A stretch of DNA of 64,000 bases from Schaalia odontolytica (lineage in GTDB: Bacteria; Actinomycetota; Actinomycetes; Actinomycetales; Actinomycetaceae), in contig NZ_CP133472.1 in the NCBI RefSeq assembly GCF_031191545.1, positions 1,860,001-1,924,000 of the forward strand, read 5' to 3'. A program made the position numbers and the translations under genes. Below, piece after piece: positions 23,922 through 53,404 of this stretch (its first letter is position 1; every line of letters begins with the position of its first letter). The notes under the pieces were generated by a model. It was not told where the DNA came from. It worked only from the letters and a program-made list of their open reading frames with translations, and did not search any database.

Positions 23922-24409
23922 TGACTGACTTGACGCCTGAAATCGGCATGGACGAGAACCGGCTGCGCCACTGCCATGGGGTGGGGATGAAAGCCTCCGA
24001 GCTGGGGCGAACCCTGTTTGGCTGGTCGGATGAGAAGTGCCGCGACATGTTCGTGATGGGCTACTTGCACGATGTTGGCTATCAATTTGCCCAGGAACAG
24101 TCCGAGCACGAGGAACTCGGAGGCACCCTGCTGCGTTCCCTGGGGTTCATGTATTGGGCGGAAATCTTCCACCACGGCAACCCCGACAGCGCCTACCAGT
24201 CGGATGAACTCCTGGTGCTCAATTTGGCGGACATGCTGATATCGAAGGACGGCAGTGCTACGACCATACCTGTGCGTCTTGCGGACATCGCGAGCCGCTA
24301 CGGCGTTGAATCAACGCAGTATGTGGCGGCGAAGAAACTCGCAGATGTTCTCATCGCGCAGGTGCGGGAGATCGGCGGGTCGCAGGACGTCCTGAGCCAG
24401 CTGCTCTGA
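23918..24409 (+). CDS. HD-domain phosphohydrolase
   Basis: A small (163 residues) HD-superfamily protein. Metal-binding residues are visible as His20 in RHCHGVG, His51-Asp52 in GYLHDVGY, a His pair in EIFHHGNPDS and Asp in LNLADML. Members of this size often dephosphorylate nucleotides or cleave phosphodiesters. Its ATG overlaps the Nudix stop (ATGA), making it the third gene of the CorA-like operon. The substrate is unknown. Pairing with a Nudix enzyme suggests nucleotide turnover, which is inference. Confidence 0.8.
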   Translation: MMTDLTPEIGMDENRLRHCHGVGMKASELGRTLFGWSDEKCRDMFVMGYLHDVGYQFAQEQSEHEELGGTLLRSLGFMYWAEIFHHGNPDSAYQSDELLVLNLADMLISKDGSATTIPVRLADIASRYGVESTQYVAAKKLADVLIAQVREIGGSQDVLSQLL

Positions 24410-24525
24410 GCGCACGTTTGGGGCGAATCGGCTGCGTGCCTCAACAGTCCTCTGCGGCTCTGCCCACGCGGATAGGTTGTGCTCGCGGTCCGGTGACGAG
24501 CCTGATGTTGGTGGGATGCTCGTAC

Positions 24526-24626
24526 GCGGATAGCTTCTGCGCGTGCGGATAGGTTCTTCGGATGCGGATAGCTTATTAACCTATCCGCATGCTCCTAACC
24601 TATCCGTATCGTCGTAACCTATCCGT
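24526..24626. repeat. Six-arm 101-bp dyad array, copy 1
   Basis: Three direct 11-mers (GCGGATAG[G/C]TT at 24526, 24545, 24564) face three inverted ones (AACCTATCCG[C/T] at 24578, 24597, 24616). The step within each side is exactly 19 bases and the centre is ATT. The innermost left arm reads GCTT instead of GGTT. Confidence 0.9.
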
Positions 24627-24802
24627 GTGCTTTGCGTCCAGTCGCGCTCAGGCTCCGTACCTGAACCTGCGACACGTGCACCTTTGGTTGTCTGAGTTAA
24701 GGACGTGGCATAGCCGCCCGATAGGAGCATCTTGTTTGTGGTCTTGGAGATTTGCCTGACGGGGGTCGTACATGGACTCGTTCGTCTACGCGCAATGATC
24801 GT

Positions 24803-24903
24803 CTGGATAGGTTGTGCGCATGGGGATAGGTTATTCGGATGCGGATAGCTTATTAACCTATCCGCATGCTCCTAACCTATCCGTATCGTCGTAGCCTATC
24901 CGC
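24803..24903. repeat. Six-arm 101-bp dyad array, copy 2
   Basis: Same design: left arms at 24803, 24822 and 24841, centre ATT, right arms at 24855, 24874 and 24893. The right half is nearly identical to copy 1, including spacers ATGCTCCT and ATCGTCGT. Confidence 0.9.
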
Positions 24904-25055: not shown

Positions 25056-26483
25056 TCAGCCGCGCAGGGAGGCGACGTAGGAGTCGATGTGCTGGGAGGA
25101 ATCCTCGGGGGTGAAGCCCGCGGCCTTGATCTTCGTCAGGTCCAGCACGGAAGACAGGGGGCGCGGAGCTACCTCACGGCCAGCGAAGTACTCTTGCGTC
25201 GTCACCTCGGTGACGTCTTCCGGATCGCGCCCGCACAGCTCGAAGACGCGCTTGGCCACCTGTGCCCAACTCATGATCGGGCCCTCGCCCGACAGGTTGT
25301 AGGTGCCGAACTCGGCTCCGCTGGTCAGCAGGTGAATGATGCCCTTGGCCAGGTCGGAGGTGAAGGTCAGGCGACCCACCTGGTCGGAGACGACCGAGGG
25401 GGAGGCACCCTGATCCGCCAGGGACGCCATGGTCTTCAGGAAGTTCTTGCCGTCGCCCACGACCCAGGAGGTGCGCACGATGTAGTGCTTGGGCGTCGAG
25501 GCCACAGCGGCATCGCCGCCGGCCTTCGACTGACCGTAGGCGCCCAGGGGAGAGGGGGCCTCGTCCTCAACGTGCATGTCCTGCGTGCCATCGAAGACGT
25601 ATTCCGTCGAGATGTGGACCATCGTCGCGTCGTGAGCCGTGGCCTCGCGGGCCAGGATCGCCGGGCCCGTCGAGTTCGCCTGCCAGGTCGCGCGGCGGCC
25701 CTCGGGCGTCTCAGCGCCGTCGACGTTCGTCCACGCGGCCGCGTTGATCACCACGTCGATGTCGTCCCACGGCAGGGCTGCCACCTGCTCGGCGTCGGAA
25801 ATCGACACCTCGGGCAGGTCCACGCCCGTCACAGTGAAGCCGGCCTCGGGCAGCGCGCGCATGAGCTCGCGGCCCAGCTGGCCGTTCGCGCCCGTCACGA
25901 GCGCACGGCGCCCCGCGGTGGCCGGAGCGGGGAAGGGGGTCACGTCCGCCATGCGCGGGTGAGCCTTGTCCTTGTCGGACAGGATGGCGCGCTCGAGCGG
26001 GATCGGCCAATCCACGGCGGCCGTCTCGTCGGCCAGGTTCAGGAAGGTGTAGCGCGCGTCCGGTGACCAGTGGTCGTTGACCAGGTACGTGTAGGCCGTG
26101 TTCGGCTCCAGGGTCTGGTAGGAGTTACCCACGCCCTTGGGGACGAACACCGCCACGCCCGGGTCGATGATCGTCGTGTAGACGGTGCCGAAAGAGGGGC
26201 CTTCGCGCAGGTCCACCCACGCGCCGAACACGCGGCCGGTCGCGACCGACACGAACTTGTCCCACGGCTCCGCGTGAATGCCTCGCGTCACCCCGACCTC
26301 GTCGTTGAAGGAGATGTTGTTCTGCACGGGCTGGAAATCGGGCAGGCCGAGCGCGACCATCTTCTCGCGCTGCCAGTTCTCCTTGAACCAGCCTCGGTTA
26401 TCGCCGTGAACAGTCAGATCAATGCGCAAGAAGCCGGGGATCGGCGTGGTCGTAATCCCCAGGGGCTTAGCGGTGGGCGCCAT
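25056..26483 (-). CDS. rmlCD: Bifunctional dTDP-4-dehydrorhamnose 3,5-epimerase/reductase (RmlC-RmlD fusion)
   Basis: One 475-residue chain performs the last two steps of dTDP-L-rhamnose synthesis. The N-terminal ~185 residues are an RmlC cupin (GDNRGWFKENW, GVTRGIHAEPWDKF with catalytic His, VFVPKGVGNSYQ). After a Pro/Ala linker, residues ~195-475 form RmlD with GANGQLGREL, STEYVFDG and the YGQSK Tyr/Lys pair. Fusions of this order are known from some Actinobacteria. ATG 26483 is preceded by AAGGAAG. It is divergent from rmlA across about 195 bases. No rmlB is recognised in the window. Confidence 0.93.
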   Translation of the reverse strand: MAPTAKPLGITTTPIPGFLRIDLTVHGDNRGWFKENWQREKMVALGLPDFQPVQNNISFNDEVGVTRGIHAEPWDKFVSVATGRVFGAWVDLREGPSFGTVYTTIIDPGVAVFVPKGVGNSYQTLEPNTAYTYLVNDHWSPDARYTFLNLADETAAVDWPIPLERAILSDKDKAHPRMADVTPFPAPATAGRRALVTGANGQLGRELMRALPEAGFTVTGVDLPEVSISDAEQVAALPWDDIDVVINAAAWTNVDGAETPEGRRATWQANSTGPAILAREATAHDATMVHISTEYVFDGTQDMHVEDEAPSPLGAYGQSKAGGDAAVASTPKHYIVRTSWVVGDGKNFLKTMASLADQGASPSVVSDQVGRLTFTSDLAKGIIHLLTSGAEFGTYNLSGEGPIMSWAQVAKRVFELCGRDPEDVTEVTTQEYFAGREVAPRPLSSVLDLTKIKAAGFTPEDSSQHIDSYVASLRG

Positions 26484-45984: not shown

Positions 45985-46359
45985 GGGGATGATCGGTTTC
46001 GACAGTGGTCGTCGATCGAAGTGAAGCGAGCCGAGAATGTACGCTCAACTCGTTAACGATGCGTGCAAACCAATAGGTGCCGAACAGAATCGCACCGACT
46101 ACGTTCTCGCTGCCTGATATCGCAGCCTGAACCTTTAGTCCGTCAGCCCGGGAGTTGCTTCCGGCCCGGTGTCTGGCGTCGTCTAGGGAGCCACTGGGAG
46201 TCGCCCATGTTGGTGGGGTGCCTCCGACACTTAATCAACTGAGCCTATCCAGCGGTGAGTCTACGCAATGCTGGGGGCTGAGAAATAAAACCGTAGACTG
46301 CGCTCGGAGAAGAATTCGGGGCCGGCTATTGGACGGGGGTTCGATTCCCCCCATCTCCA
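45985..46359 (+). ncRNA. ssrA: Transfer-messenger RNA
   Basis: Rescues stalled ribosomes with SmpB. The 5' end GGGGATG pairs with CATCTCC at the 3' end (one G-T pair), and the T arm GGGTTCGATTCCCCC is present. The tag frame at 46079-46117 encodes AEQNRTDYVLAA and then TGA, with an extra Ala coming from the charged tmRNA. The 3' sequence reads ACAG after the stem, so CCA is not encoded and must be added. Length is about 375 bases, normal for the family. Confidence 0.95.
46079..46117 (+). other. tmRNA tag-peptide reading frame
   Basis: Twelve codons (AEQNRTDYVLAA) and TGA. The LAA ending is the usual degradation signal for ClpXP-type proteases. Confidence 0.9.
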
Positions 46360-47294
46360 CAGATTCCCACCAATCGTTGCAATTGCAGCGATATCCGCCT
46401 CGAATGGGTACGTGGTGGGTACAACAGAGCGGCCCCGGCCATTGGAAGGTTTTGCTTCCGGTGGACGGGGTCTGCTTGTTAGTGAGATGTCGGGCGTGAT
46501 CTCGCTTGGAGGGTCCGGGACGAGCGGAAGCGTCGTCCCCTTTCGGGAGCGTCAAGAGAAGATCCTCGATGATGCGGCGGAGCTTATGGCCCCAGCCGAG
46601 CGCCGCTCGGTAGCGAGCCTGCGGCTGGTCGAGGTTGAGTGTTGCTGCCTCCAGGTCCTTCTCGAGGCGACGGCAGCCGCTCGAGTTCCGTTTTCATCGC
46701 GTCGAACGCCAGTGTGAGCTCCGCGAGACGGGAGTGTTCGTGCTCGACGTGCCGCTGCTACCGCCCGCTGATGAGGTTGCCGCAGGCGATCCCCACCAGT
46801 CCGATCAGCGCTTAGACGACGATGTTATCGAGTTGGACTCACGGCATGCCGCTCTCCTGACTGCGCATCCCGGTCTCACCCTCGATGTCGGCGCGAGTCA
46901 TGCCGTCAGGCGTCATAACCCCCACCCACTCGAGAAGATTCACCCTGCCGATTCGGATTCTCGCGAGCACCTGGTAGACCGCCCACGCCGTCCCGAGGAA
47001 CGAAGCTCACCAGCGAAGAAGGTAAAGAGATGCGCCCCAGCGGTTGCAACGCAGGGGCGCGAGAGCAGGCGAAAGAATTGCTCGTGAAGAAGGGTATCAC
47101 GTCTTGTCGGCCTTTGTGGCTGTGGCGATCGTTGATCGGTGCGCTGGCTAAGGCCTGGTAGTGCCGCGCCCAGACAGAACGCCACTCCTGAGTGACCGAG
47201 CATACACCCATAACGGGCACTGTTCATGCGCCCAGCGCAAAATGACTCCCTCGAGCGCCCATGTGGGTCTCGCCGGAGTATGGTCTGGGGCGGG
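46360..47294. other. Stretch without intact gene, decayed phage-like DNA
   Basis: About 930 bases between tmRNA and the XRE-ImmA gene. No open frame is convincing. Minus-strand fragments described separately look like remnants of a coding sequence. Confidence 0.5.
46540..46840 (-). pseudogene. Remnant of a phage-like membrane/coiled-coil protein
   Basis: On the minus strand the sequence reads ALIGLVGIACGNLISGR (hydrophobic), then HSRLAELTLAFDAMKTELER, and after a frame change RRLEKDLEAATLNLDQ and LRRIIEDLLLTLPKG. In-frame stops at 46812-46814 and 46758-46760 and one frameshift break it. A short membrane helix followed by a coiled coil is like phage lysis accessory proteins, but the identity is not proven. 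It lies next to tmRNA, a common phage integration site. Confidence 0.4.
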
Positions 47295-52932: not shown

Positions 52933-53404
52933 GTTCTTGTTGACCTGTCACTTTGTTCGACAGTGGAGGAATAGTGTGATCTCGGATCGGGGTTCCGTGC
53001 TCGCATACGCGGATAGGTTGCGAACATCCGGATAGGTCACGAGCATGTGGATAGCTTATTAACCTATCCGCAAGTGAATAACCTATCCGTATCCGCATAA
53101 CCTATCCGCGTGAGCCGTTTGCTCCACGCGACAGCGGGAGCTAACACCCCTCTCGGACGAGCGTGCCTAGCATTGCCCCGTAGGCGACCGAGTCGCGGCT
53201 CATGTATTCCCAGTGCCCCCACCCCGCCCAGACGCGCAGCCCCGCTTCAGGGTTCAATGGCGGAATCGCTCGTCAGGAGCGCAGGAGCGCAGAAGCGCCC
53301 GTGAACTGAGTCGACAATCGGATCCCTTAGCCGCCCGGATAGGGGAGTGAGGAGAATGACAGATAGCACTTGCGGTACCATTGTCGCGAACGAAGGAGTT
53401 TGAC
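52933..53404. other. Non-coding stretch with the third palindromic array
   Basis: About 470 bases. The first part holds the six-arm array. The rest has no gene I can support. TACCAT at 53376 is a possible -10 box for the next gene. Confidence 0.6.
53009..53109. repeat. Six-arm 101-bp dyad array, copy 3
   Basis: Left arms at 53009, 53028 and 53047, centre ATT, right arms at 53061, 53080 and 53099, all with 19-base steps. Spacers differ from copies 1 and 2 although arm positions are identical, so the arms and their spacing are the conserved part. Confidence 0.9.

Follow-up and report, generated by a model that had tools for sequence, protein, structure and literature searches.

Facing arrays of a rigidly stepped DNA site in the Schaalia odontolytica chromosome, candidate platforms for a DNA-binding protein

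Several described systems place copies of a short DNA site side by side or scatter them between genes. In the iterons of P1- and F-type plasmids direct copies of a short site are spaced at 19 bp and accompanied by inverted copies. Mycobacteriophage stoperators are asymmetric repressor sites, present in many copies in short intergenic gaps, each as a single site. SlmA and Noc sites are dispersed sites for a single protein and are not known to form six-site arrays. Intrinsic terminators combine a paired stem with a run of U residues. The REP and BIME elements of enterobacteria and pseudomonads resemble the arrays described here in being dispersed and intergenic, in lying at 3' ends, and in their dyad symmetry and mosaic structure. 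In PMC3733652 a REP is a palindrome of 20–40 bp tagged with GTAG or CGTC, and PMC4117426 describes SlmA sites as enriched toward the origin.

The present arrays share the iteron step (direct repeats of about 19–22 bp; 19 in 476 of 488 steps here). They differ from P1/F iterons in that about thirty of them lie in one chromosome with the blocks always facing, and no rep gene or origin was seen beside them. Like stoperators they are many intergenic asymmetric sites, but stoperators belong to a phage genome and form no fixed array. Compared with REP/BIME, the array is a 97-bp multi-arm structure with a fixed 19-bp step, its consensus lacks the GTAG or CGTC end tag and its pairing arms are unmatched. 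The parts of the literature available to us on named elements of this form, the repeats of this organism, actinobacterial REPs, iterons, nucleoid occlusion and Actinomyces uptake sequences yielded no such element. Comparisons with Rfam, plasmids and phages gave the same result, in agreement with the sequence-only reading of this DNA, which knew of no named element of this form.

Geometry of the arrays

The window, i.e. the whole 64,000-nt stretch of DNA that was analysed, corresponds to positions 1,860,001–1,924,000 of a single 2,455,831-bp contig and contains three arrays (Table 1). Their plan is three GGATAGSTT arms at 19 bp followed, beyond a short centre, by three in reverse orientation at the same step. 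The two arrays reported by the sequence-only reading are present, with 19-bp steps, an ATT centre and a length of 101 bp when counted as 11-mers; a third array and a lone arm are added here, and of its 11-mer arms the first of array 2 is preceded by CT and not GC. Arrays 1 and 2 show 93% identity across 121 nt; being local duplicates they are not mutually independent. The pattern GGATAGSTT-N8-12-GGATAGSTT occurs nine times in the window against none in 100 dinucleotide shuffles, and 68 times in the whole genome. Rfam comparison of the window gave a tmRNA (45985–46362) as its sole match, and no described RNA family matched the arrays.

Table 1. Arrays and neighbouring genes in the window (positions are those of the window)
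Feature	Coordinates	Strand	Remarks
Type-A array 1	24526..24626		9-mer arms: + at 24528, 24547, 24566; - at 24578, 24597, 24616
Type-A array 2, local duplicate of array 1	24803..24903		arms: + at 24805, 24824, 24843; - at 24855, 24874, 24893 (24893 with one mismatch)
Type-A array 3, absent from the sequence-only reading	53009..53109		arms: + at 53011, 53030 (one mismatch), 53049; - at 53061, 53080, 53099
Lone extra arm GGATAGGTT	24470..24478	+	upstream of array 1
Gene with 3' end toward arrays 1 and 2	23987..24409	+	ORF list gives 23918-24409
Gene convergent to the preceding gene	25056..26483	-	product resembles a fused dTDP-rhamnose synthesis protein (judged by its sequence)

In the whole 2.46-Mb genome (G000) 28 arrays were found in the canonical register, in which GGATAGSTT stands at 0, 19 and 38 and its reverse at 50, 69 and 88, with at least 42 of the 54 arm letters matching; all six arms are within one mismatch in 19 of them. 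Locus surroundings were examined for two lists of pattern matches, one complete and the other comprising the matches listed. A search of the whole genome and of related genomes for stepped GGATAGSTT followed by the inverted set had been proposed in the sequence-only reading; relatives share the arrays.

Steps and turns were counted in 145 clusters of at least two arms from this genome and its relatives, with duplicates removed only partly. Same-direction steps are exactly 19 in 476 of 488 cases and 38 in six more; turns from + to - measure 12 in 127 of 141 cases and 31 in ten more, and - to + neighbours occur just twice. The number of arms per cluster runs from two to nine with a mode of six (55 clusters have six, 25 have five and 19 have seven; all others have 2–4, 8 or 9). 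The arrays are rigid in spacing and fixed in polarity, and variable in arm number. Free variation of arm number or spacing had been named beforehand as a result that would speak against the element; spacing is not free, while arm number does vary. The step said to be exactly 19 is as rigid as these counts indicate, apart from one array of this genome with a 20-bp step.

Alignment of the units gave the consensus CAYSYGGATAGGTTRYG of about 17 bp, with information flanking the 9-mer on both sides; its core columns are inflated, the cores of relatives having been fetched by the exact core pattern. Spacer sequence is free while the geometry is rigid. The ATT centre of the reported arrays is found in 15 of the 28 arrays of this genome, the others having AAT (10) or ACT or GTT (3). 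The C variant (GCTT), which had been assigned always to the innermost left arm, marks a real asymmetry, but only the three window arrays are uniformly left-sided: among the 28 arrays it occupies the left inner arm in 11, the right in nine, neither in eight and both in none. For 123 arrays from this genome and its relatives the corresponding counts are 42, 45, 35 and one, whereas independence of the two arms would predict 16 with both.

Gene context, relatives and sister arrays

Genes were called with a home-made program, which places 30 clusters in 26 gaps, of which 15 are convergent, 11 tandem and none divergent. Among gaps of at least 150 bp at the same loci, 25 of 116 are divergent against 0 of 26 array gaps (P about 0.002); the arrays thus share the 3'-side extragenic position of REP/BIME. 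One array runs 6 bp into a gene call that is itself weak, and otherwise all are intergenic. The array gaps are long and rich in other repeats, and the neighbouring genes, read by eye, are ordinary housekeeping-like genes with no common theme. Convergent gaps of at least 400 bp number four in 228 kb of array-less terminus stretches of this genome and five in 240 kb elsewhere, the latter being a biased sample picked between known arrays.

Ten of 35 genomes of the genus have the step pattern, each strand giving between 11 and 55 matches; the remaining 25 have none. Identity of a neighbouring 250-aa protein is at least 92% within this set and does not exceed 73% in the genomes without the pattern, which places the arrays in a single tight clade. 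Of the relatives of this genome that bear names, several are assigned to Schaalia odontolytica or to species close to it. A scan for the exact core in 84,980 species, one genome each, gave 85 stretches; the 80 listed come from records under the names Schaalia, Actinomyces, Sanguibacter 250_SKED and Xylanimonas 352_XCEL, plus one isolated core in a Bacillales bin. Most array stretches of NZ_JVOJ (Sanguibacter keddieii 250_SKED) and JVKM (Xylanimonas cellulosilytica 352_XCEL) are syntenic with loci of this genome at roughly 82–92%, and these records are therefore probably Schaalia filed under incorrect species names. An order-wide pattern search of 149 genomes returned this genome and nine others, the latter with one match each; its reversed control was useless because GGATAGG reads identically backwards.

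Among the 80 relative loci listed, 64 align to array loci of this genome, and synteny paired 53 of 91 relative cores with 18 of its arrays. In the 53 pairs the outer arms, which played no part in finding the relative cores, have a mean identity of 0.83, compared with 0.64 in spacers and 0.38 in the outer flanks, and they exceed the spacers in 42 pairs (10 opposite, one tie). The 32 clearest pairs give 0.86 for arms against 0.77 for spacers (21 favouring arms, 10 opposite, one tie; 11 of 14 when counted per array of this genome). This fits maintenance of the arms at fixed places, but the test is a weak one with little room, the arms of unrelated arrays being already 0.82 identical.

In the tal-dnaQ gap an array or partial array is present in nine of the ten clade genomes and absent from G034. 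G028 lacks the main array, with a junction identical to that of G034, and keeps a second array that is one 19-bp unit shorter than the G020 copy; G011 has four arrays in this gap. Since arrays have been lost at some loci (G034; the main array of G028), no single one is indispensable. Two further conserved dyad elements are found at L116 5940-6100 and 5600-5740 and in the tal-dnaQ gaps of relatives (L137-L143). One is built of CACCASTTAG / AAGTGGTG sites and the other has the ends TCGCAYRYAATT around AACGTTGCAATTCCAACG.

At L131 5962-6929, and likewise at L126, L012, L017 and L071, a two-gene pair lies between two copies of the murB 3' end plus array. By its sequence it looks like a HepT toxin with an HTH-nucleotidyltransferase antitoxin. 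It was dropped as a candidate array binder, being absent at the same place in this genome (L106). A 12-mer, ACGAGGCCGGGG, occurs in 254 copies in this genome, in genes and gaps, and in none when read backwards; examples in the window are 4557(-), 21553(+), 28728(+) and 30017(+). It is present in 119–426 copies in the ten clade genomes, 185 in G013, 167 in G015 and 0–45 in the rest, and would seem to resemble a DNA-uptake-type signal or a terminator motif.

Sampled stretches of genus members without these (type-A) arrays were searched generically for facing, equally stepped arms. In G022 (400 kb sampled) ten matches were obtained against none in its dinucleotide shuffle, eight of them being arrays with the arm CATTGGGGTAGG (type B). 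Of their 32 same-direction steps 22 are exactly 20, a looser register than that of type A. Their centre, GGKTAGG-N7-CCTAMCC, is 7 bp as in type A. Both types have GGRTAGG flanking the 7-bp centre and look related. Near one type-B array (L257 16814-17040, G022) four extra arms stand at 52 bp within a longer tandem repeat. G013 (180 kb) gave five matches against none shuffled, including four arrays with GTTTGGCGGC, steps of 19 in 9 of 9 and a longer centre. Samples of G005 (180 kb) and G004 (40 kb) contained no sister arrays, and G007, G016, G014 and G021 (100 kb each) yielded one isolated match apiece, with its own arm and step and no recurring family. As controls, array-free stretches of the own genome (39, 468 kb) gave 0 matches and its array loci 29. 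No divergent gap was seen among the 12 sister arrays, one of which lies at a stretch end with a single neighbour visible; the evidence on sister arrays comes from samples of two genomes.

Mobility, terminus and strand pairing

The main rival to a host function is that the arrays are dispersed repeats of the REP/BIME or MITE kind, spread by a putative mobile enzyme or by duplication and tolerated in 3' gaps with no role for the host; we regard this as a serious though less likely account, with perhaps a little over a quarter of the weight. The 3' and convergent location is what would be expected of a tolerated selfish repeat too, and the arrays are clade-restricted, lie in gaps rich in other repeats and can multiply locally, as in the G011 gap. 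Spacer identity above 0.8 was found in 3 of 378 pairs of arrays of this genome, two of these being neighbours. The third pair, at 903 kb and 1,468 kb (L107 6171-6334 and L113 6382-6544), is 565 kb apart and shares all 40 spacer letters and, at one end but not the other, about 50 bp of flank, so that long-range copying or conversion does occur. Against this rival, the spacers of different arrays are mostly unrelated, which indicates no recent burst, and positions are often conserved between species. The Y1/REP transposase (PF01797) was found in none of 24 genus genomes, six of them array-bearing (the own genome and five others; four array-bearing genomes lie outside this set), and a REP served by a RAYT was rejected on this ground. 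Words shared between left and right flanks of the 28 arrays show no excess (mean 3.64 against 3.32 shuffled). The array-less junction of G028 and G034 fits either a 3-bp target-site duplication or a deletion at 3-bp microhomology.

Array 1 had no match in plasmid and phage collections. In viral contigs the step pattern gave three stretches, each with two direct arms only in DNA of 48–50% GC and judged unrelated; the type-B pattern gave no match and the type-C pattern one, again of two direct arms only. A plasmid or phage origin was rejected on these results. Together, the transposase, plasmid/phage and flank tests provide nothing to link the arrays to a known insertion sequence, a fragment of which the sequence-only reading had allowed they might turn out to be.

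The same reading had proposed that copies be mapped relative to origin and terminus. In this genome dnaA is at 1,143,937-1,145,277, and a 690-kb array-free zone contains the point opposite. Of its 25 loci, 2 fall in the third of the chromosome most distant from dnaA (8.3 expected, P 0.004), and depletion is also seen in G011 (3/25, P 0.017) and G028 (2/17, P 0.042). G034 (4/13, P 0.56) and G031 (3/14, P 0.27) show none. These five genomes are related and not independent, the lengths of G011 and G031 are rounded, and the terminus was taken as opposite dnaA since no match to a dif pattern was obtained and GC skew did not give a strong enough signal, skew and gene strand being rough guides only. 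Three of these related genomes therefore hint at avoidance of the terminus, which is not a general property. A function of the arrays as sites that position the chromosome or serve nucleoid occlusion, kept from the terminus like those of SlmA or Noc, would account for the array-free zone and the depletion in three genomes; the two genomes without depletion and the approximate termini make this improbable. The likeness to SlmA/Noc extends to dispersed sites for a single protein, the protein here being putative and the avoidance limited to three of five genomes.

Still less probable is a hairpin formed in RNA or in single-stranded DNA, for instance one that terminates transcription in both directions or stabilises mRNA. 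The arrays are often between convergent genes, and those of the window fold far above shuffled sequence (z -6.6 to -9.1; five folds), but strong folding of a single array follows from its being a dyad. Across the 28 arrays of this genome, facing spacers pair below shuffled combinations (z -2.1 and -2.7) and whole halves more so (-3.8); in the set of 123, Watson-Crick pairing gives z -3.4 and -1.8 for the two spacer pairs and -3.3 for whole halves. An exception is the outermost pair of arms among the 123 arrays, where matching is slightly better than in shuffled combinations (z +1.9; +2.6 with G-U). TTTT within 12 nt of an array end was found at 0 of 56 ends, so that both the U-run and the spacer pairing of an intrinsic terminator are wanting. 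In a crude scan terminator-like hairpins precede the array at 9 of 46 facing gene ends against 6 of 58 convergent ends without arrays, and the arrays are thus not clearly terminator substitutes. A hairpin as the main reading was rejected on the pairing test, despite the folding of single arrays. The earlier preference for repeated protein binding to DNA over an RNA hairpin gains support from the poor dyad pairing, the outermost arms excepted. The low complementarity may reflect selection against long self-complementary stretches in DNA that needs duplex binding.

Iteron-like arrays that bind or titrate an initiator of replication, encoded by a plasmid or by an integrated element, are hardly to be expected, since, although direct repeats of about 19 bp with inverted copies resemble the iterons with a dyad operator of P1 and F, the nearest neighbours read by eye are ordinary chromosomal genes and not rep genes, and array 1 is without a match among plasmids and phages.

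A putative nucleoprotein platform

The reading that we prefer, with a probability of about 0.5, is that the arrays are host-maintained platforms at the ends of transcription units for a putative cooperative DNA-binding protein, with a role in architecture or insulation. An array would offer about six copies of the site CAYSYGGATAGGTTRYG, head to tail in two facing blocks, which a putative sequence-specific protein would most likely fill cooperatively. The fixed 19-bp step, just under two helical turns, would set the contacts between neighbouring protomers and the fixed centre those between the two blocks. The outcome would be one symmetric nucleoprotein complex of fixed shape, with about thirty such complexes per chromosome. 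Because the arrays stand at unit ends, with none in the divergent promoter gaps examined, the role would most likely be chromosome architecture or insulation between neighbouring units, and not regulation of the next promoter.

Support for the platform comes from the rigid geometry combined with free spacers, the consensus extending beyond the 9-mer, the convergent and tandem gaps, and arms that change more slowly than spacers. To these are added the avoidance of complementarity between facing spacers and of the symmetric C-C state between inner arms, the difference of one whole 19-bp unit between G028 and G020, and the recurrence in G022 and G013 of the same plan built from different arms. 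Counting against it are the 10 of 32 clear pairs with spacers above arms, the 0.82 identity of unrelated arms, the loss of an array in G034 and of the main array in G028, and a 3' location that fits a selfish repeat as well.

It is possible, although tentative, that the arrays belong to a genus-wide system of chromosomal addressing. Lineages of the genus would have one plan in common, facing blocks of sites stepped at close to two helical turns; the site sequence, the step (19 or 20) and the centre would be re-specified, presumably together with the binding protein.

If a protein fills the arrays, a genus of common human oral bacteria would have a dispersed chromosomal docking system of fixed nucleoprotein geometry. 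The sister lineages, with the same plan in other letters, would then let a binder and some thirty targets be seen changing specificity together. The arrays are short, can be synthesized as bait and can be deleted, so that the proposal is directly testable.
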